Of a stretch of 64,000 nt of DNA, positions 10,966 through 50,740 are shown piece by piece. The stretch's first letter is position 1, and every line of letters starts with the position of its first letter. Made by a program: the position numbers and the translations under genes. The notes below the pieces were generated by a model. That model worked only from the letters and a program-made list of their open reading frames with translations, had not been told where the DNA came from and made no database searches. Location of the stretch: assembly GCA_028284065.1 (NCBI GenBank), contig JANQSJ010000007.1, forward strand, positions 62,001 through 126,000, given 5' to 3'. This stretch comes from Parvularculaceae bacterium (GTDB lineage Bacteria > Pseudomonadota > Alphaproteobacteria > Caulobacterales > Parvularculaceae).

Positions 10966-11235
10966 TGGAGCACCGCCATTAGTTCAGCGTCCTTCAACAT
11001 CCTTCACAGGCTTGTCGCCATAAACGCGCCGATGAGGCGCGGCGGTGCCTGACATCAAATACTGGCGCGGTTTGCGGCTAATGCAAATGGCCTAGGCCGC
11101 CCAATGTAGTCCTGGCGCGAATTCCGCTTTTGGAAACGCGCCAAGCTAGACGGTTCATTCGCTATCGCATTCTGGTCGGACGAGACCGCGCGCCGGCCTC
11201 CGGCCGCGCTTTCGCCGCTTTAGGGCTTGCCGGCG

Positions 11236-11562
11236 CTATTCGGCCGCATGGCTTGCGTGCCCGTCGACGAGCCCCTGATTGATCCGGTCCTTCAGGACGT
11301 TTGACGCGCGGAACGAGATGACGCGCCGCGGCGTGATCGGCACCTCCTCGCCGGTTTTAGGATTACGTCCCATACGCATTTTCTTTTCACGGATGGAAAA
11401 CGTGCCAAACGAAGAGATCTTCACCTGCTCGCCTCGCTCAAGCGATGCGCAGATCTCCTCCACAATTCGCTCCACGAAAACCGAGGATTCCTGGCGCGAT
11501 ATGCCTATGGATCGGTAGATTGCGTCGGTGAGATCAGCGCGCGTGACCGTCGCTTGCGACAT
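11236..11562 (-). CDS. ihfA: Integration host factor subunit alpha
   Basis: This 108-residue HU/IHF-family protein contains the canonical run [18 protein letters not shown] followed by [13 protein letters not shown], the DNA-intercalating beta arm with its proline, and [17 protein letters not shown]. With the beta subunit encoded elsewhere it forms a heterodimer that bends DNA at specific sites for recombination, replication and transcription. The C-terminus is slightly longer than in E. coli. It sits between fabH and merR on the same strand, with 168 bp separating it from fabH. Confidence 0.96.
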
Positions 11563-11730
11563 GGCGACTTCACTCCATTCACTTATGTTGACTAGCCCTC
11601 ACGCGCTTTTCTTAAGCGTTTAGGGTTTCGTCGGTCAACAATTGCGCGCGGTGCGGCGGCGCAATGCGCCAGTTCAATTTGCTGGCGCCCCCTTGCGCCG
11701 CGACCGACAAGCGAGCCGATGCGCCACGCA

Positions 11731-43232: not shown

Positions 43233-43233
43233 T

Positions 43234-43252
43234 TGCGAGCGATTCTCGTTAT
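43234..43252. promoter_or_regulatory. Candidate Fur-like iron-regulatory site upstream of sufC
   Basis: TGCGAGCGATTCTCGTTAT lies 57 bp upstream of sufC and matches the site upstream of fbpA at 15 of 19 positions. It is a partial palindrome of the GCGAG...CTCGT type typical of Fur boxes in proteobacteria. Confidence 0.7.
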
Positions 43253-43309
43253 TGCTATGTCTACCGGATGGAGCGCTGACGGGAGTCAATAAGCCATGAC
43301 AACAACGCC

Positions 43310-44032
43310 ATGACAGAGGGGTTGCTGGAGCTTCGCGACGTATCCGTGTCTGTGGGCGACAAGGCGATCCTGAGAGATGTGAGCCTGACTGTCGGCGCCG
43401 GCGAAGCGCATATTCTTCTCGGGCCGAACGGGTCGGGAAAGTCATCGGTCCTTTCGGCGATCATGGGGCTCGCACCCTTTGAGGTGACCAAGGGCGACAT
43501 TCTTTATCGCGGTCAGAGCATCAAGGGCCTTGGCGTTGATGAGCGCGCGCGCGTCGGCCTCGGCATGGCGTTTCAGCGCCCGCCCACCCTTGAAGGCGTC
43601 ACGGTGGCGGAATTCGCGTCGGCGCTTGACGCGAGCGCGCGTCTCGCCACGGAGGCGGAGGCGCTCAATCTCGGCGACTTCGCCGATCGGGATCTCGTGG
43701 TCGGTTTCTCCGGCGGGGAGATCAAGCGCTGGGAAGTCCTGAAACTGTTCCTGCAGGCGCCGGATTTCCTCCTGTTCGACGAACCGGAAAGCGGCGTCGA
43801 CCTTGAGCATATCGCGGCTGTCGGGGCCGCGGTGAACCGGTTGGTGTCGGCGCCGGCGCGCGACGGCTCGAAGCGCGGCGCCCTCCTCATCACCCACACC
43901 GGCCTAATCCTGGAACATGTGCAGGCGGACATGGGCCATATTTTGAGCGGTGGACGGATTATCCACAGCGGGCCGCCGAAGGCTCTCTTCCAGCATATTC
44001 AGAAATCCGGATACGTCGCGCCGGCCGCGTGA
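43310..44032 (+). CDS. sufC: SufC-type ABC ATPase of a minimal Fe-S assembly unit
   Basis: This 240-residue soluble ATPase has Walker A GPNGSGKS (38-45), the signature FSGGE (133-137) in VGFSGGEIKRWEVLK and Walker B FLLFDEPESGVDLEH. The SGGE(I)KR and DEPESGVD forms fit SufC, which drives assembly of Fe-S clusters on the SufB scaffold. It is immediately followed by a SufB-type gene and has a Fur-like site upstream. No sufD, sufS, sufE or sufT is nearby, so the unit resembles the two-gene SufBC found in archaea more than the canonical proteobacterial suf operon. Confidence 0.88.
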   Translation: MTEGLLELRDVSVSVGDKAILRDVSLTVGAGEAHILLGPNGSGKSSVLSAIMGLAPFEVTKGDILYRGQSIKGLGVDERARVGLGMAFQRPPTLEGVTVAEFASALDASARLATEAEALNLGDFADRDLVVGFSGGEIKRWEVLKLFLQAPDFLLFDEPESGVDLEHIAAVGAAVNRLVSAPARDGSKRGALLITHTGLILEHVQADMGHILSGGRIIHSGPPKALFQHIQKSGYVAPAA

Positions 44033-44058
44033 CCGCCCCTGCGACCAAAGGAGACGGC

Positions 44059-45180
44059 ATGTCAGACGGTAAGCACGAAGCGCGCGACGGTCTTAACGCT
44101 GGCGAGGAAGCAATCCTGAGGCGCGTCGGCTATGACGGGGCGGCGGCGCGGAGCGCTACGTCCGTCCTCATTGACCACGAGCTGCGCGTCGCCGATTCGA
44201 CCCTCGACGGGGTCGAGATCATGTCCATCCAGGACGCGCTCATGCGCTATGACTGGGTGCAGAACCTGATGTTCAACCTCATCGCGCCGGACGAAAACGA
44301 GCTCCTGCGCCAGGCGGCGGAGCTTCTGCACGACCCGATCGGCCGGTTCGTCTACGTCCATGACGGCGCGAAGGTCAGCCTGCCGGTGCAGTCCTTCACG
44401 GTGCTTGAAACGCCGCAGAAACGTCAGTTCACCCATAATGTGACCGTGATTGGCAAGGGCGCCGAGGTGGAGATGATCTCCGGCGCGGCGGTGCCGGAGA
44501 ACGTGCAGGCGGGACACCATGTCTCAATAGACGAAACCTATGTGCGCGAGGGCGCGCGGTGCCGTTCGGTCTCAATCGAGACCTGGGGGCGCAATATGAC
44601 GGTCGACTCCTATTCGCGCAGCGAGATCGGCGCCGGCGCGGAGATGACGTCAAACCAGATTATGCTCGCTTCGCTGCGCCGGCATCTCTCTGACACCAAG
44701 ACCCATATCGGCGCAGATGCGAGCTGTAACGACCAGGCGATCATCTTCGCGCCCGAGGGCACCGAACGGAACTTCCAAACTGAAGTCTTTCTGACCGCGC
44801 CTGGCGCGCGCTCCGAGCATATCGCGCGCATGGTCTCCGCAGGTGGTCGCATCATCAATAACAGCCTTCTCGTGGGCGAGACGGCGGGCGTCAGCGGCTT
44901 TCTAGGGTGCGACGGACTGATGCTGTCCGACGACGGAGAAATGGTCGCAACGCCGAGCCTCAAAGCCAAAAGCGTCGAGGCGCAGTTATCACACGAGGCG
45001 TCGGTCGGCATGATCGACGCGGAGAAGCTCGCCTATCTGATGGCGTCGGGGCTGTCGGAGGATCGCGCCCGCGACCTCATCGTTCAGGGGTTCCTTCGCC
45101 TTAAGGACGAGTACGTGCCCGAAGATATGCGCGCGCGGGTCACCGAAATGATCGCGGCGGCGAAGTCCGGCGGCATGTAA
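44059..45180 (+). CDS. sufB: SufB/SufD-family scaffold protein of a minimal Fe-S assembly unit
   Basis: This 373-residue beta-helix protein is the partner of the SufC gene just upstream. The core has GAEVEMISGAAVPENVQAGHHVSIDETYVREGARCRSVSIETWG and the C-terminus AQLSHEASVGMIDAEKLAYLMASGLSEDRARDLIVQGFL (His about 312), the SufB/SufD hallmark. It is shorter than canonical SufB (about 480) and SufD (about 420), which matches archaeal-type SufB. The ATG at 44059 has GGAG upstream; a GTG at 44029 overlapping sufC is an alternative. It is probably cotranscribed with sufC and iron-regulated. Confidence 0.85.
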   Translation: MSDGKHEARDGLNAGEEAILRRVGYDGAAARSATSVLIDHELRVADSTLDGVEIMSIQDALMRYDWVQNLMFNLIAPDENELLRQAAELLHDPIGRFVYVHDGAKVSLPVQSFTVLETPQKRQFTHNVTVIGKGAEVEMISGAAVPENVQAGHHVSIDETYVREGARCRSVSIETWGRNMTVDSYSRSEIGAGAEMTSNQIMLASLRRHLSDTKTHIGADASCNDQAIIFAPEGTERNFQTEVFLTAPGARSEHIARMVSAGGRIINNSLLVGETAGVSGFLGCDGLMLSDDGEMVATPSLKAKSVEAQLSHEASVGMIDAEKLAYLMASGLSEDRARDLIVQGFLRLKDEYVPEDMRARVTEMIAAAKSGGM

Positions 45181-45240: not shown

Positions 45241-46089
45241 CTACTCCGCCGGCAGTTCCAGCACGACTTTAGAGGTCTGCGCGATCACCTGCCCGATGGG
45301 CGCAGGACTTTCCGGCGGCACAGGCGCTTCCGGCCAAAGGCCAATCAGCGTGTCGAGCTCCGTGACGATGCCGTCGGTGCGCAGCTCGGACCCTTCAATC
45401 CGCTCGCGCGCGACGATCGCGAATCCGTACGCGTCTTGATACTCGCCGGGGTCGGAGACCGCGCCGTCGGTGATCGCCACGGTATATTCGTCGACGATCG
45501 TCTCCATCAGAAAACGAATGACGTCCGCATCCTCGCCGCCAGCGGCGCCGGACATTTCGGCGAGGTTCTTTTCCGCGGCGACCAGCATCGGCTCGACTTC
45601 GGCGGCGGGCTTGCCCTCCTCCAACGCCTTGGAGACGGTCTCGAACACGGCCGCGTCGAAGCCGAGGGCGTCGAGGCCCGCCCGTTCCGCCTCGTGCGTC
45701 TCCGACACGGGATGGAGGAGATGCTGCGAGGCCATTTGCGGCTCGCCCGCGCGGTAAAGGGCAAGGCCCGCCTTGACGTGGCCGGTCATGAAGGCGAGCC
45801 GATGCGGCAGGGGCAGCGCGCCAATCGCTTCTCCGCTCTCGCCGCCTTCACCTTCACCACCTTCGCCCTCTCCGCCTTCTCCTTCGCCGCCCTCGCCGAA
45901 GTCGTCGGCGGACAGGGGCTCCGGCGCTGTTTCCGCCGGCGCGGCGGCGATTGTCTCCTGCGCCTCCTGGGCTTCTTCGGCTGCGGTCGCGCCGACATCC
46001 TCTTCAGCCGAACCGCAGCCGGCCAGTCCCGTTCCCAAAAAGGCCGTACCCAGACCGAGCCCCGCCCAACGCTTAAGTGTCGACTTCAT
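45241..46089 (-). CDS. Acidic lipoprotein with a Gly/Glu repeat, in the iron island
   Basis: From the ATG at 46089 (AAAGG upstream) this is a 282-residue lipoprotein with lipobox LAGC. An Ala/Glu-rich region and a run of four GEGGE-type repeats follow, then a helical domain with LPLPHRLAFMTGHVKAGLALYRAGEPQMASQHLLHPVSETHE and repeated acidic helices. The domain has conserved-looking His residues and resembles iron-linked periplasmic helical proteins only loosely; I do not recognise the family. A Fur-like site lies 51 bp upstream. It is divergent from the PiuC-like gene, which suggests a role in iron handling at the envelope. Confidence 0.7.
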   Translation of the reverse strand: MKSTLKRWAGLGLGTAFLGTGLAGCGSAEEDVGATAAEEAQEAQETIAAAPAETAPEPLSADDFGEGGEGEGGEGEGGEGEGGESGEAIGALPLPHRLAFMTGHVKAGLALYRAGEPQMASQHLLHPVSETHEAERAGLDALGFDAAVFETVSKALEEGKPAAEVEPMLVAAEKNLAEMSGAAGGEDADVIRFLMETIVDEYTVAITDGAVSDPGEYQDAYGFAIVARERIEGSELRTDGIVTELDTLIGLWPEAPVPPESPAPIGQVIAQTSKVVLELPAE

Positions 46090-46139
46090 GACGCGCCTTT
46101 CTTCCCATTTGAGTGGAGTATAAAATCTTGCCGATCGGA

Positions 46140-46163: not shown

Positions 46164-46841
46164 ATGCTTCTCACCATTGCCAGCGTCCTCGATGAAAAAG
46201 ACCTGAGCCGACTGCGCGACATCGCGTCGGCGCTCACCTGGCGCGACGGCAGGGTGACGGCGGGGCGCACGGCGAAGGCCGTGAAGAGAAACGAACAGGC
46301 GGACCTGACGTCGCCGGCGGGCCGAAAATTCTCAGGCCTCGTTCTAGGCGCAATTCGGGAGCACGCCGTTGTCAAAGCGGCCGCGCGCCCGCGCGAGTTC
46401 TCGAACCTGCTTCTCAGCCGCACGAGCAATGGCGGCCACTACGGCGCCCATGTGGATAATGCGATCATGCGCAAGGGGGACGGCCGGTTTCGGACGGACC
46501 TGTCCTACACGCTGTTTCTCGCCGACCCGTCGGACTATGAGGGCGGCGAACTTATCCTCCACCACGCCGGCGTCGATCAGGCGATCAAGGGGGCGGCGGG
46601 CGACCTCGTCCTATACCCGTCATCCTGCGTGCATCAGGTGGCGCCGGTGACAAGCGGCGAGCGGACGGCCGCGGTCGGCTGGATCGAGAGTCTGATCGCC
46701 GACGAAAGCCGCCGCGATCTCCTGTTCGACCTTGAGAACCTGCGCGTGTCGCTGCGCCAGTCGTTACCCGCCCAGTCGCCGGAGCTTATTACGCTCGACA
46801 AGACCATCGCGAACCTAGTTCGCATGTGGGCGCAGCCTTAG
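46164..46841 (+). CDS. piuC: PiuC/YbiX-like Fe(II)/2-oxoglutarate oxygenase
   Basis: This 225-residue protein belongs to the PKHD-type hydroxylases. The Fe(II) triad is His96 and Asp98 in HYGAHVDNA and His157 in SSCVHQVAP; Arg167 in GERTAAVGW binds 2-oxoglutarate. Family members (PiuC, YbiX) are often iron-repressed and sit beside siderophore receptors, which agrees with this iron island. The substrate is not established. It is divergent from the lipoprotein gene and convergent with fbpA, 15 bp apart. Confidence 0.92.
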   Translation: MLLTIASVLDEKDLSRLRDIASALTWRDGRVTAGRTAKAVKRNEQADLTSPAGRKFSGLVLGAIREHAVVKAAARPREFSNLLLSRTSNGGHYGAHVDNAIMRKGDGRFRTDLSYTLFLADPSDYEGGELILHHAGVDQAIKGAAGDLVLYPSSCVHQVAPVTSGERTAAVGWIESLIADESRRDLLFDLENLRVSLRQSLPAQSPELITLDKTIANLVRMWAQP

Positions 46842-46855
46842 CTGCGCCACGTTTC

Positions 46856-47896
46856 CTAAGGCCAGCCGACGCGGTCGAATATGCGAATGGCCTCGGCCTG
46901 CTGGGCGCCGAGCTCCGCGACGTTCAGATTGTCTTCCTTGAAGTCGCCAAGCCGCTCCACCGCCGAGGACGCATCCACGCCCGCGACCGCCGGATATTCA
47001 TTATTGCCGTTCGCGAAGTAGCGCTGCGCCGAGGCGTCCGTTAGATATTCAATGAACTTGATCGCATTCTCGCGGTTCGGCGCGTTCGCCGTAACCCCAA
47101 CGCCGCTGATGTTCACATGCGTGCCGCGTCCTTCCTGGTCCGGAAAAATGACGCCGACAGCGTCGAACGCCGCTTTCATTTTCGGGTTATCCGATGCGGC
47201 GAAGCGCGCGAGGTAATAGGAATTGACCACGGAAATGCCGCATTCGCCGGCGGCGACGGCGCTGATCTGGCTCGTATCATTGCCCTGCGGTCGCCGAGCG
47301 AAATTCAGAACGACGTTCTTCGCCCATTCTTCGGCCGCCTCTGCGCCCTGATTGGCGATAACCGAGGCCAGAAGCGAGATGTTATAGATGTTCGAGGACG
47401 ATCGTACGCAGATTTTTCCGCGATGAGCGGGATCGGCGAGATCTGCATAGGTTTCCAATGGCGCCGGCGCGCCCGCTGCCTTGTTGTAGATGATGACCCG
47501 CGCGCGCTTCGATACGCCAAACCAGAGCCCGTCGGGGTGGCGCATATATGCCGGCAGCCGCTCCTCCAGCGTCGCAGACTCGACCGAGGACAATACGCCC
47601 ACCTGCTCGGCGCGCCACAGCCGACCCGCATCGACAGTGATGAGCACGTCGGCCGGGCTGAATTCGCCTTCGTTCCGTATGCGTTCGATGAGAGCGTCGG
47701 CCCCTGCCTCAAGCCGGTTGACCTTTATCCCGGTCGCCTTTGTGAAGTCATCATAGAGGGCGAGGTCGGTGTCGTAATGGCGCGACGAGTAGACATTGAC
47801 GACGCCCCCGTCGGCGGCGGCCGCGCCGCCAACCAGCGCCGCAATCGCGCCGCAAAGGCCAATAAATGGGGAGTAGAAAAGTGCGCGCATCCGCAT
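46856..47896 (-). CDS. fbpA: Ferric-iron ABC transporter substrate-binding protein
   Basis: This 346-residue periplasmic protein has a signal peptide (cleavage near AAA-DGG, about residue 28) and family signatures VVNVYSSRHYDTDLALYDDF and ECGISVVNSYYLARF with the adjacent Tyr227-Tyr228 that bind Fe(III) in FbpA/FutA proteins. It delivers iron to FbpB-FbpC. A strong Fur-like site lies 48 bp upstream. AAGGGG precedes the ATG. It is separated from fbpC by about 100 bp, so it has its own promoter. Confidence 0.95.
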   Translation of the reverse strand: MRMRALFYSPFIGLCGAIAALVGGAAAADGGVVNVYSSRHYDTDLALYDDFTKATGIKVNRLEAGADALIERIRNEGEFSPADVLITVDAGRLWRAEQVGVLSSVESATLEERLPAYMRHPDGLWFGVSKRARVIIYNKAAGAPAPLETYADLADPAHRGKICVRSSSNIYNISLLASVIANQGAEAAEEWAKNVVLNFARRPQGNDTSQISAVAAGECGISVVNSYYLARFAASDNPKMKAAFDAVGVIFPDQEGRGTHVNISGVGVTANAPNRENAIKFIEYLTDASAQRYFANGNNEYPAVAGVDASSAVERLGDFKEDNLNVAELGAQQAEAIRIFDRVGWP

Positions 47897-47943
47897 GCTG
47901 AAAGCCCCTTTAGTAGATAGCGCGACAAATGCCGACGCTCACA

Positions 47944-47962
47944 TGCGAGTGATTATCATTTT
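47944..47962. promoter_or_regulatory. Candidate Fur box upstream of fbpA
   Basis: TGCGAGTGATTATCATTTT resembles a Fur box and is 48 bp upstream of the fbpA start. It is the clearest of three related sites in this island. Confidence 0.75.
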
Positions 47963-47992
47963 GGAGCGCGCCGCCGCAACAGGCCGGGACAG

Positions 47993-49081
47993 TTACTCTC
48001 CCGCGAAGGCGAAGACTGCGCCGGGCTTCGCAGAAACCTTCACTGAGTCGCCAACCGCGAACGGCGCCTCGCGCGGCGCTTGCGCCCAGAGACGTTCGCC
48101 GGTCGGCGCGCCGACGAGCAGCTTCTGCGCCGCGCCGGCGAGACGCACGTCTTCCACCCGGACCTCACCCTCGGAGACGGGCGAAACGTCAACCGCATCA
48201 GGCCGGACAAGCAGATCGAGCGCGGCCGACACGGGCGCGGCGCCAGCCACGCATTCGGGCGCCCACAGACCGAACGGCGTCTCGACGCCGCCCGCTTGCC
48301 ATCGGCCTCGCACCGACGCTCCGCCGCCGAACATGGCGCCGACGCCAATCGAGGCAGGCGCGTCATAGATCTCAGCCGGCGCGCCGGTCTGGACGATACG
48401 CCCGTTTTCCATGACCGCGATCCGATCGGCGACCTCCATCGCTTCGTCGGGATCGTGCGTCACAAGAATGGCGATCGACTCGCGCGCCTTCAGCGCCCGC
48501 CGCGTCTCCTGGCGCAGGGCGCGGCGGCGCAGGATGTCGAGATTGGCGAAAGGCTCGTCCAGCAACAGTACCCGAGGCGCCGGGGCCAGCGCCCTGCCGA
48601 GGGCGACGCGCTGCTGCTGGCCGCCGGAAAGCGTATGCGGATAGCGCTCGCCATAGTCTTCGAGGCCCAATTGCCGAAGCACGCCTTCGATGACGGCCGC
48701 CTTGTCAGGGCGCATCTCAAGCCCAAAGCCGACATTGCGCGCGACGGTCATATGCGGAAAAAGAGCGCCCTCCTGGAACACGAGGCCAATGTCGCGCGCC
48801 TCGGGCGGCGGCGCATTCCCAGGCGTCGCCAGCGCTCCTCCGTCAAGACGAAGCTCGCCCTGCTGAAGATCGATGAGACCCGCGGCGAGGCGCAGGAGCG
48901 TCGTCTTTCCGCATCCCGACGGACCGAGCAGACAGGTAATGTCGCCCGTCTCCGCGACAAAGGACACGTCGGACACGGCGGGGCGGCCGCCATAGGCGTG
49001 CGAGATGTCAATGAATTCGAGGGCCAAGGGCCGCCTTCCAGGTTCTTGATAACCGGTCTTAATATGATACCGCTCCGCCAT
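47993..49081 (-). CDS. fbpC: Ferric-iron ABC transporter ATP-binding protein
   Basis: This ABC ATPase has Walker A GPSGCGKTT, signature LSGGQQQRVALGRAL, Walker B VLLLDEPFANLD and the H-loop VTHDPDEAM, followed by a C-terminal TOBE-like regulatory region (about 260-362). It powers the FbpB permease. The start is uncertain: ATG at 49081 (362 residues) or TTG at 49027 preceded by GGAAGG (344 residues), the latter beginning right before LEFIDISHAYGG. Its 5' end abuts the divergent fbpB. Confidence 0.92.
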   Translation of the reverse strand: MAERYHIKTGYQEPGRRPLALEFIDISHAYGGRPAVSDVSFVAETGDITCLLGPSGCGKTTLLRLAAGLIDLQQGELRLDGGALATPGNAPPPEARDIGLVFQEGALFPHMTVARNVGFGLEMRPDKAAVIEGVLRQLGLEDYGERYPHTLSGGQQQRVALGRALAPAPRVLLLDEPFANLDILRRRALRQETRRALKARESIAILVTHDPDEAMEVADRIAVMENGRIVQTGAPAEIYDAPASIGVGAMFGGGASVRGRWQAGGVETPFGLWAPECVAGAAPVSAALDLLVRPDAVDVSPVSEGEVRVEDVRLAGAAQKLLVGAPTGERLWAQAPREAPFAVGDSVKVSAKPGAVFAFAGE

Positions 49082-49102
49082 GCAAAATCCGACGCGAACC
49101 TT

Positions 49103-50740
49103 ATGACGCGGCCGCCCGCCGGCCTCGGCTGGAGCGTGGCGGCGGCGGGGGTCGCCGCCCTCGCCGCAACGCCCATTGTCGCCGTGCTGTGGTCGTTCGC
49201 AGCGGGCGGCGATGCGGCCTCGGGGCATGTCTGGACGACGGTCCTCCCGTCCTACGCGTTGAACACGCTCGCGCTTATGGCGATGGTCGGGGTCCTGTCG
49301 GCGGCGATCGGCGTCGGCGCGGCGTGGATCGTCACCGCCATGAACTTTCCGGGGCGGCGCGTCCTCTCGTTTCTCCTGCCGCTGCCGCTGGCGGCCCCGG
49401 CCTATATCATCGCTTATCTTTATACAGACCTGTTGGAGTTTTCCGGACCGGTTCAGACCGCCCTGCGCGACGCGTTCTCGCTCGGCGCCGGCGACTACTG
49501 GTTTCCGAATGTGAGAAGCCTGCCTGGCGCGGCGACAATGCTAAGCCTCGTGCTCTACCCTTATGTCTATCTCCTGTCGCGCGCCGCCTTCGCCGCGCAG
49601 AGCCGAAGCCAGTTCCAGGCTGCCCGCACGCTCGGCATGTCGCCGACGCGGGCGTTCGCGCGCGTGGCGCTCCCCGGCGCGCGGCCGGCGATCGCCGGCG
49701 GGCTCGCGCTTGTTCTGATGGAGACGCTTGCCGATTTCGGCGTCGCCGACTATTTCGCGATCCCCACCTTCAGCACCGGGATTTTCCGCGCCTGGCTCGC
49801 CATGGGCGATCGCATCGCCGCTATGAAGATCGCCGGCGTCATGCTCATTTTCGTCATCGTGCTTGTCGGCGCCGAAGCCCTCACCCGCCGCGGCGCCGTC
49901 GCCAGCGCCGACCGCCTCTCAGCGGCTCCGCCGCCCTTCACGCTGTCGCCGCTCGCAAGCGCGCTGGCGATCGCGCTGTGCTCAGCGCCCGTCCTCGCTG
50001 GCTTCGGCGTTCCGGTTGCGAGGCTCATCGCGCTGGCGATTTCAGAAGGCGACGCGCAACCCATGAACGTCCTCGCAGGGTACGCCGGCAACAGCTTACA
50101 GGTCGCCGTTCTCGCCGCCGCCGTCGCGTCGCTCGCGGCGCTCCTTCTCGCCTACGCCCAACGCAGCGTTCCAAAGGACGATGTTGGCGGCGCGTTTCTG
50201 AAGGGGGGCGTGCGCATCGCGACCCTCGGATACGCCTTGCCGGGCGCCCTCCTCGCTGTCGGACTGCTCGTCCCCCTCGGCGCCCTCGACCGCACGTTGG
50301 CGACAGTCCTTCGCGACGCGTTCGGCGTCAACTCAGGCCTCATCCTTACAGGGACAATTGCGCTCCTCACCTATGCGCTCGTGGTGCGGTTCCTCACCGT
50401 TTCCTACAACAGCGTCAGCGCCGGCCTCGCCAAGATTCCCCCGACAATGGACGCCGCGGCGCGAACGCTCGGCGCCGGACGTCTGCGGATACTTCGGACG
50501 ATTCACACGCCGCTGCTCGCGCCGAGCCTCGGGGCTGGCGCGGCGCTCGTCTTTATCGACGTGATGAGGGAGCTGCCGGCGACGCTGATCCTGCGGCCTT
50601 TCAATTTTGAAACGCTTGCGACCCGCGTCTACCGCCTTGCGTCCGACGAGCGCCTCGCTGAGGCGTCGACGGCCGCGCTCATCATCATCGCCGTCGGCCT
50701 CATACCCATCGCATTGCTGCAAAGGCGCGGCGGGACATAG
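49103..50740 (+). CDS. fbpB: Ferric-iron ABC transporter permease
   Basis: This 545-residue protein has two fused BPD-transporter domains with about twelve helices. Each half has the inner-membrane EAA-like loop (RTLGMSPTRAFARVALPGARPAIAGG in the first and RTLGAGRLRILRTIHTPLLAPSLGAG in the second) that contacts FbpC. It imports Fe(III) delivered by FbpA. An ATG at 49064 is an alternative start 13 codons upstream; neither has a strong ribosome-binding site. It is divergent from fbpC and ends 16 bp before the convergent soxG. Confidence 0.93.
   Translation: MTRPPAGLGWSVAAAGVAALAATPIVAVLWSFAAGGDAASGHVWTTVLPSYALNTLALMAMVGVLSAAIGVGAAWIVTAMNFPGRRVLSFLLPLPLAAPAYIIAYLYTDLLEFSGPVQTALRDAFSLGAGDYWFPNVRSLPGAATMLSLVLYPYVYLLSRAAFAAQSRSQFQAARTLGMSPTRAFARVALPGARPAIAGGLALVLMETLADFGVADYFAIPTFSTGIFRAWLAMGDRIAAMKIAGVMLIFVIVLVGAEALTRRGAVASADRLSAAPPPFTLSPLASALAIALCSAPVLAGFGVPVARLIALAISEGDAQPMNVLAGYAGNSLQVAVLAAAVASLAALLLAYAQRSVPKDDVGGAFLKGGVRIATLGYALPGALLAVGLLVPLGALDRTLATVLRDAFGVNSGLILTGTIALLTYALVVRFLTVSYNSVSAGLAKIPPTMDAAARTLGAGRLRILRTIHTPLLAPSLGAGAALVFIDVMRELPATLILRPFNFETLATRVYRLASDERLAEASTAALIIIAVGLIPIALLQRRGGT

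Follow-up and report, generated by a model that had tools for sequence, protein, structure and literature searches.

The two-gene SUF-like minimal system (SMS), whose founding paper is reportedly Garcia 2022, and the canonical SUF system (SufBC2D) are the closest described relatives of the gene pair studied here. In M. jannaschii and M. thermolithotrophicus, SMS holds its cluster on three SmsC cysteines (PMC12192291 and PMC12584684). The same papers describe SmsC C-terminal tails carrying from 0 to 5 cysteines (PMC12192291) and an E. coli SufC tail without a cysteine cluster site (PMC12584684), as in our pair. In SUF, sulfur enters at SufB Cys254 (PMC5571166). The transition from the archaeal scaffold, with its cluster on SmsC, to SUF, with its cluster at the SufB–SufD interface, is an open question. 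The fused SmsCB of Blastocystis has been described as an SMS outside archaea and anaerobic prokaryotes (PMC10631705), where our SMS-like pair is also found; it differs in being eukaryotic and fused, and the likeness is one of description alone. Our literature search, which covered a minority of subscription journals, returned nothing on SMS in Alphaproteobacteria or on the clade described below, and the residue pattern and distribution of this clade are novel as far as we searched.

We analyzed a stretch of 64,000 nt from a Parvularculaceae genome, hereafter the window, and found a SufC–SufB-type pair where a sequence-only reading had placed it. Both frames were confirmed on the forward strand: the smsC-like gene (43310–44032) encodes an ABC ATPase of 240 aa and is followed, after 26 bases, by the smsB-like gene (44059–45180), encoding a beta-helix scaffold of 373 aa. 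The start given in the sequence-only reading, 43234, falls on a predicted Fur-type box (43233–43253). The smsB-like frame begins at the ATG at 44059, with GGAG just 5' of it, while an alternative GTG at 44029 would give a product of 383 aa. A five-codon frame at 43297–43314 (ATG ACA ACA ACG CCA TGA) overlaps the smsC start and is possibly a translation-coupled leader.

The ATPase matched Pfam ABC_tran (5e-24) and had sufC TIGR01978 as its top NCBIfam match, at 181 bits and under the cut-off of 213. The scaffold matched PF01458 (113 bits); its best NCBIfam family was SmsB NF052511, at 145.5 bits against a cut-off of 650, and sufB scored 135.4 bits against a cut-off of 346. In a PDB sequence search, the scaffold matched M. 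mazei SmsB (4dn7) at 4e-53 versus 1.5e-10 for E. coli SufB. An AlphaFold2 model built with 25 clade sequences reached a pLDDT of 89.6 and aligned with 4dn7 over 365 residues (Z 48.6, rmsd 1.7 Å), followed by SufB/SufD-type chains (Z 38–43) and M. jannaschii SmsB (29). The Pfam, NCBIfam, and PDB searches thus concur on the family of the pair but not on any known subfamily. The "archaeal-like" character assigned earlier holds for the fold, with 4dn7 nearest, but not for the closest sequences, which are bacterial and partly plasmid-borne.

For residue counts, we used 29 of the 31 clade pairs after removing L038 (a near copy of L034) and L053 (a duplicate of L052); L097 (a copy of L096) and L098 (a clade member with the same gene as L055) were also dropped. 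Actinomycetota supplied ordinary SMS comparators: at 1e-50, the SMS profile picked out 31 of 198 genomes, including that of a Mycobacterium clade member, and just 19 of the remaining 30 yielded loci for use (L099–L117). These share the smsC–smsB order with the window and have about 28–34% (SmsB) and 42–50% (SmsC) identity to it; unlike the window type, they keep all cluster-ligand cysteines, and in 19/19 of these genomes the ordinary SMS SmsB is the sole SufBD protein.

The methanogen systems (M. jannaschii 9h78, M. mazei 4dn7) resemble the window pair in the two-gene operon, the lack of SufD, the SmsB fold, and the equivalents of C284/H312/E313. In contrast, the window clade lacks the CXnCXXC ligands of SmsC and the equivalents of SmsB C145/C175 (M. 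thermolithotrophicus numbering). The window ATPase contains no cysteine, and the three SmsC cluster-ligand columns, representing C218 and the CxxC, hold Cys in 2/29, 0/29, and 0/29 clade members versus 20/20 each in comparators. The CxxC itself is found in 0/29 versus 20/20, and the clade tail reads mostly GYxxP (GYVAPAA at the end of the window protein) where comparators read GYxxCxxC. SmsB columns 113 and 143, the counterparts of C145 and C175 (the 113–C145 match following from the paper's description), hold Cys in none of the 29 clade members and in all 21 comparators. The archaeal cluster cysteines being lost, the clade probably works differently. The catalytic ABC motifs are intact in the window and kept in 29/29 clade members (Walker A lysine, Q-loop glutamine, SGGE, Walker B DE, and H-loop histidine).

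Column 143 also aligns with E. coli SufB Cys254, and is Ala in the window (A143) and S, A, or D in 29/29 clade members; in this the clade differs from canonical SUF. It resembles SUF in keeping the C405/H433/E434 site of E. coli SufB, which aligns with C284/H312/E313 and is invariant in 50/50 sequences (29 clade members and 21 comparators). Equivalents of SmsB C318/H346/E347 are present in 29/29 and 21/21, respectively. Cluster binding in M. thermolithotrophicus does not depend on the SmsB residues that the window clade has retained (PMC12584684), so their retention is no proof of a cluster site there. One further cysteine, C168, is found in 26/29 clade members (missing in 3/29) and in no comparator. 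By our reading of the model, its strand (167–175) would be the next of the same sheet after 136–144, and C168 appears to have the same parity as the columns that correspond to T283 and Q285 of the tunnel; these were placed by simple offset and are approximate.

The phylogenetic trees agreed with this separation. The 29 window-type SmsB sequences formed a single clade with support of 100/99, as they did again in a reduced set of 14 (100/99), and 18 window-type SmsC sequences likewise grouped together (99/98). Ordinary SMS was separate in the trees, with support from 75/36 to 93/91, and the SufB and SufC groups each excluded the window clade at 100/100. The rebuilt SmsB tree omits two very long branches, a SufD and the fragment from M. 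jannaschii, as well as two SufB rows, and some of its SufB rows begin a set length 5' of the match and not at a start codon. When the SmsC tree was rooted with other ABC ATPases, p-AU was 0.477 for SMS, and the free tree pointed to SufC (77/91). In these trees, the window type forms a third clade beside SMS and SufB/SufC, at 99–100 support and with the root not fixed. A paralogue of canonical SufBC was rejected on the 100/100 exclusions, in agreement with the earlier expectation that the pair would not nest within the canonical proteobacterial proteins. The proposed match to SMS fared less evenly: the two-gene layout stands, but simple membership is not supported, given the lost ligand cysteines, the score far under the SmsB cut-off, and the separate clade. 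Judged by sequence, the pair differs both from ordinary SMS and from canonical SufBC. It is a real, coherent, and rare variant whose function we infer.

We found 30 relatives, 25 on genome contigs and 5 in plasmid records, mostly in Rhodobacterales and Sphingomonadales, with three in Actinomycetota. The scan took in 84,980 species, each represented by a single genome, and used two short peptide patterns only, so the 25 genomic loci are a lower bound. In addition to the two main orders, the hosts comprise Afifella, a Parvularcula MAG, an unclassified proteobacterial MAG, Mycolicibacterium, Mycobacterium, Pseudoclavibacter, and a MAG labeled Rhodopirellula. The host genera are mostly aerobes. 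Close relatives, at 54–57%, are plasmid-borne in Rhodovulum, Sphingomonas panacis, and Novosphingobium pentaromativorans, and the NCBI plasmid records label the smsB-like protein "SufD family." The two genes are adjacent in all 30 relatives.

Close to home, the smsB-like protein was absent from 60/60 sampled relatives of its own genome, two of the same genus included. Some match at ≤1e-5 was found in 59 of these (best 1.4e-18) and is taken as canonical SufB/SufD, while one genome gave none; among 384 other genomes of the class and 397 other genomes of the phylum, 0 reached 1e-22. A first single-protein scan of genome contigs gave no match, and viral contigs scanned with the clade alignment gave no relative. 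A broader scan of viral contigs returned two (L096 and L097, IMG/VR) whose SMS pair is of the ordinary CxxC type; the pair there probably belongs to host sequence flanking a prophage. Because of the patchy distribution, we consider the pair to spread horizontally as a two-gene unit. Base composition was rejected as a mark of transfer, since the GC content of the pair (0.63–0.65) equals that of its surroundings, leaving the patchy distribution as the single argument.

The pair is kept alongside a housekeeping suf operon and does not replace it. The genome has three PF01458 matches, of which two (SufB and SufD) are on contig 17 and the third, the smsB-like protein, is on contig 2. The contig 17 operon comprises iscR, iscS, sufB, sufC, sufD, sufS, a DUF59/SufT-like frame, and sufA (names assigned by eye, except for the SufB/SufD frames), confirming the main Fe–S system for which the pair was suggested to be a backup; NifU_N gave one weak match at 29.5 bits (cut-off 22). 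Canonical SufB and SufD were also found in 25/25 relatives' genomes checked, or 26/26 counting the window's own, with SufD apparently split over contigs in G791; the Rhodopirellula-labeled bin has two canonical SufB and may be mixed. Unlike methanogen SMS, the window type is a clade of its own, accessory to SUF, and hosted by aerobic genera; unlike canonical SUF, it has no SufD partner gene beside it, the genome's sufD lying in the other operon.

The absence of SufD, SufS, SufE, and SufT genes near the pair, noted earlier, held among the neighbors examined (PAP2, the lipoprotein, PiuC, and an Fbp-type ABC importer). Convergent with smsB is a predicted lipoprotein gene (45241–46092, –) with no Pfam or NCBIfam match, followed by a PiuC/YbiX-type Fe(II)/2OG dioxygenase gene (46164–46841, +). 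The iron importer reported close by proved to be an Fbp-type ABC set at 46856–50740, consisting of a periplasmic binding protein (46856–47896, –), an FbpC-type ATPase (47993–49228, –), and an FbpB-type permease with two BPD_transp_1 stretches (49079–50740, +), the starts of the latter two being provisional. Four relatives that lack smsCB have the lipoprotein–Fbp block, three of them together with PiuC, and the pair has therefore probably been added beside a pre-existing iron-uptake locus.

The box 5' of the smsC-like gene (TTGCGAGCGATTCTCGTTATT, 43233–43253, +) matches the Fur consensus at 13/19 positions, with a p value of 0.040 in 200 shuffles that is modest on its own. Our search pattern was built from this site and its Hephaestia counterparts; the zero mismatches of the window site are therefore circular, and the neighbors of other sites are the test. 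For this wider motif, the genome contains 78 sites versus 28 for the reversed control. Twelve non-sms sites had at most two mismatches (two loci with three, L165 and L174, were left out of the count), six of them starting near ExbB, FbpA, ferritin, or TonB receptors and six elsewhere. The Fur-like site of the sequence-only reading is strengthened by the motif preceding other iron genes, including fbpA in the window, where TGCGAGTGATTATCATTT (47944–47961, +; G000:C2:109944–109961) lies 5' of the binding protein gene. The predicted box thus places the window pair apparently under iron control; its role as an iron-starvation backup is one that we infer.

Across the loci, the Fur consensus reached p ≤ 0.05 in 6/30 upstream regions scored (about 1.5 expected) and IdeR in only 2/30, both of them mycobacterial loci (16/19 and 14/19), so iron control is not general across the clade. 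FNR boxes showed no enrichment in the upstream regions scored. Hephaestia has 7 Fur-type sites and 0 in the control; the palindrome TTGCGAATGATTCGCAA precedes smsC, and five of the six other sites flank ferritin, an Rrf2 regulator, an ECF sigma factor, and TonB receptors, the Rrf2 site being about 1.3 kb from the SufB core match of the same genome. Sphingobium CECT 9361 has 14 sites and 6 in the control; seven of the non-sms sites were inspected, and two of these lie beside a TonB receptor gene and an iron/manganese superoxide dismutase gene. In two sphingomonads, Fur-type boxes adjoin the gene of a small conserved protein that has no Pfam match (L136 914–1351, –; L137 1524–2189, +) and is once divergent from smsC.

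Five Sphingobium-group loci have a different motif, CTACGTAACCTTACAGAT, in common, about 70 bases 5' of smsC (L036 7135, L037 7154, L049 8136, L050 1315, and L051 8132), which speaks for a signal other than iron. In L036 it is found again, with two mismatches, between two universal-stress-protein genes, and several of the loci have a PAS histidine kinase and a LuxR-type response regulator nearby. These sites look like a response-regulator regulon, and a hypoxia role for the Sphingobium pair is our guess from this context.

At a probability of roughly 0.5, we read the pair as a horizontally spread accessory Fe–S scaffold, iron-controlled here and assembling its cluster at the SmsB interface. 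By analogy, the complex would contain two copies each of the SmsB-like beta-helix protein and the SmsC-like ATPase. The unit would move between genomes horizontally, as its scattered hosts suggest, and in the window's genome the box indicates that iron shortage probably raises the pair through Fur. As the clade is without the SmsC cluster ligands, assembly would most likely take place at the SmsB–SmsB interface, on C284 with H312/E313, the equivalent of SufB C405/H433/E434, and ATP hydrolysis by the intact ATPase may open that interface, as in SUF. With the Cys254 equivalent lost, sulfur cannot enter by the Cys254 route; it might arrive as sulfide or, speculatively, through the clade-specific C168, which could lie one rung further in on the sheet of the Cys254 equivalent and share the parity of tunnel-lining residues. 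The residue roles behind this proposal are those given for SUF and SMS in PMC5571166, PMC12192291, and PMC12584684.

The SufB and SufD present in 26/26 pair-bearing genomes also suggest that the pair could plug into the resident SUF system, the SmsB-like protein replacing SufB or SufD in mixed complexes, as part of an iron-starvation set of variant subunits, and using chromosomal SufS, SufE, and SufA. Its interface residues C284/H312/E313 are those used by SUF, and in Hephaestia a similar Fur-type box occurs also by the Rrf2 gene near the suf genes. We nevertheless think this unlikely: the entry point for SufE-delivered sulfur is lost in 29/29 clade members, an ATPase of its own accompanies the pair in 30/30 relatives, and the distance to SufB/SufC in the trees is large.

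The loss of most of the conserved SMS scaffold cysteines, the iron-linked promoters or neighbors at several loci, and the uneven promoter types would also fit a repurposed fold, in which an ATP-driven beta-helix complex builds no cluster but keeps iron or sulfide in store, passes either of them on, or has a regulatory role. Retention of the ABC motifs and the C/H/E triad in 29/29, for which such a function has no obvious need, makes this distinctly improbable. An unchanged SMS from anaerobes, binding its cluster on SmsC through other residues, has in its favor the fold, the closest solved relative, and the fact that cysteine-free tails are not unheard of (0 to 5 C-terminal cysteines in PMC12192291), but is very doubtful against the cysteine-poor SmsC of the clade, with none in the window and ligand columns at 2, 0, and 0 of 29 versus 20/20, and the separate clade at 99–100 support.

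The accessory-scaffold reading can be extended, more tentatively, to a third lineage of SufB/SufC type, distinct from both SMS and SUF, that would be derived from SMS and lack SufD. In it, as in SUF but in parallel, the exposed SmsC site would have been lost in favor of assembly in the buried SmsB interface, and sulfur entry would have shifted by one rung to C168, the system spreading in aerobes as an accessory whose inducer would be iron shortage or, for Sphingobium, a different stress signal. A clade without the SmsC site yet also without a SufD partner separates two steps of the transition from the archaeal scaffold to SUF, and because Rhodovulum and Sphingobium, among other hosts, can be cultured, these steps are amenable to study. 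The clade would further mean that SMS-like scaffolds extend beyond anaerobes.

Across the loci of relatives, whose neighbors are only partly annotated, the sole widely recurring frames were smsC, smsB, and their antisense frames. In the closest relative (L039, 70%), the pair lies between frames read as prfB and a haloperoxidase. On the Rhodovulum plasmids (L034, L035, and L038), a Crp/Fnr regulator, pseudoazurin (annotated in L038), and NnrS precede the pair, with Fur and metal ABC genes further upstream. In Boseongicola (L042), an RNA ligase gene (PF09414) is found at 10967–11686, a short way 3' of smsB.
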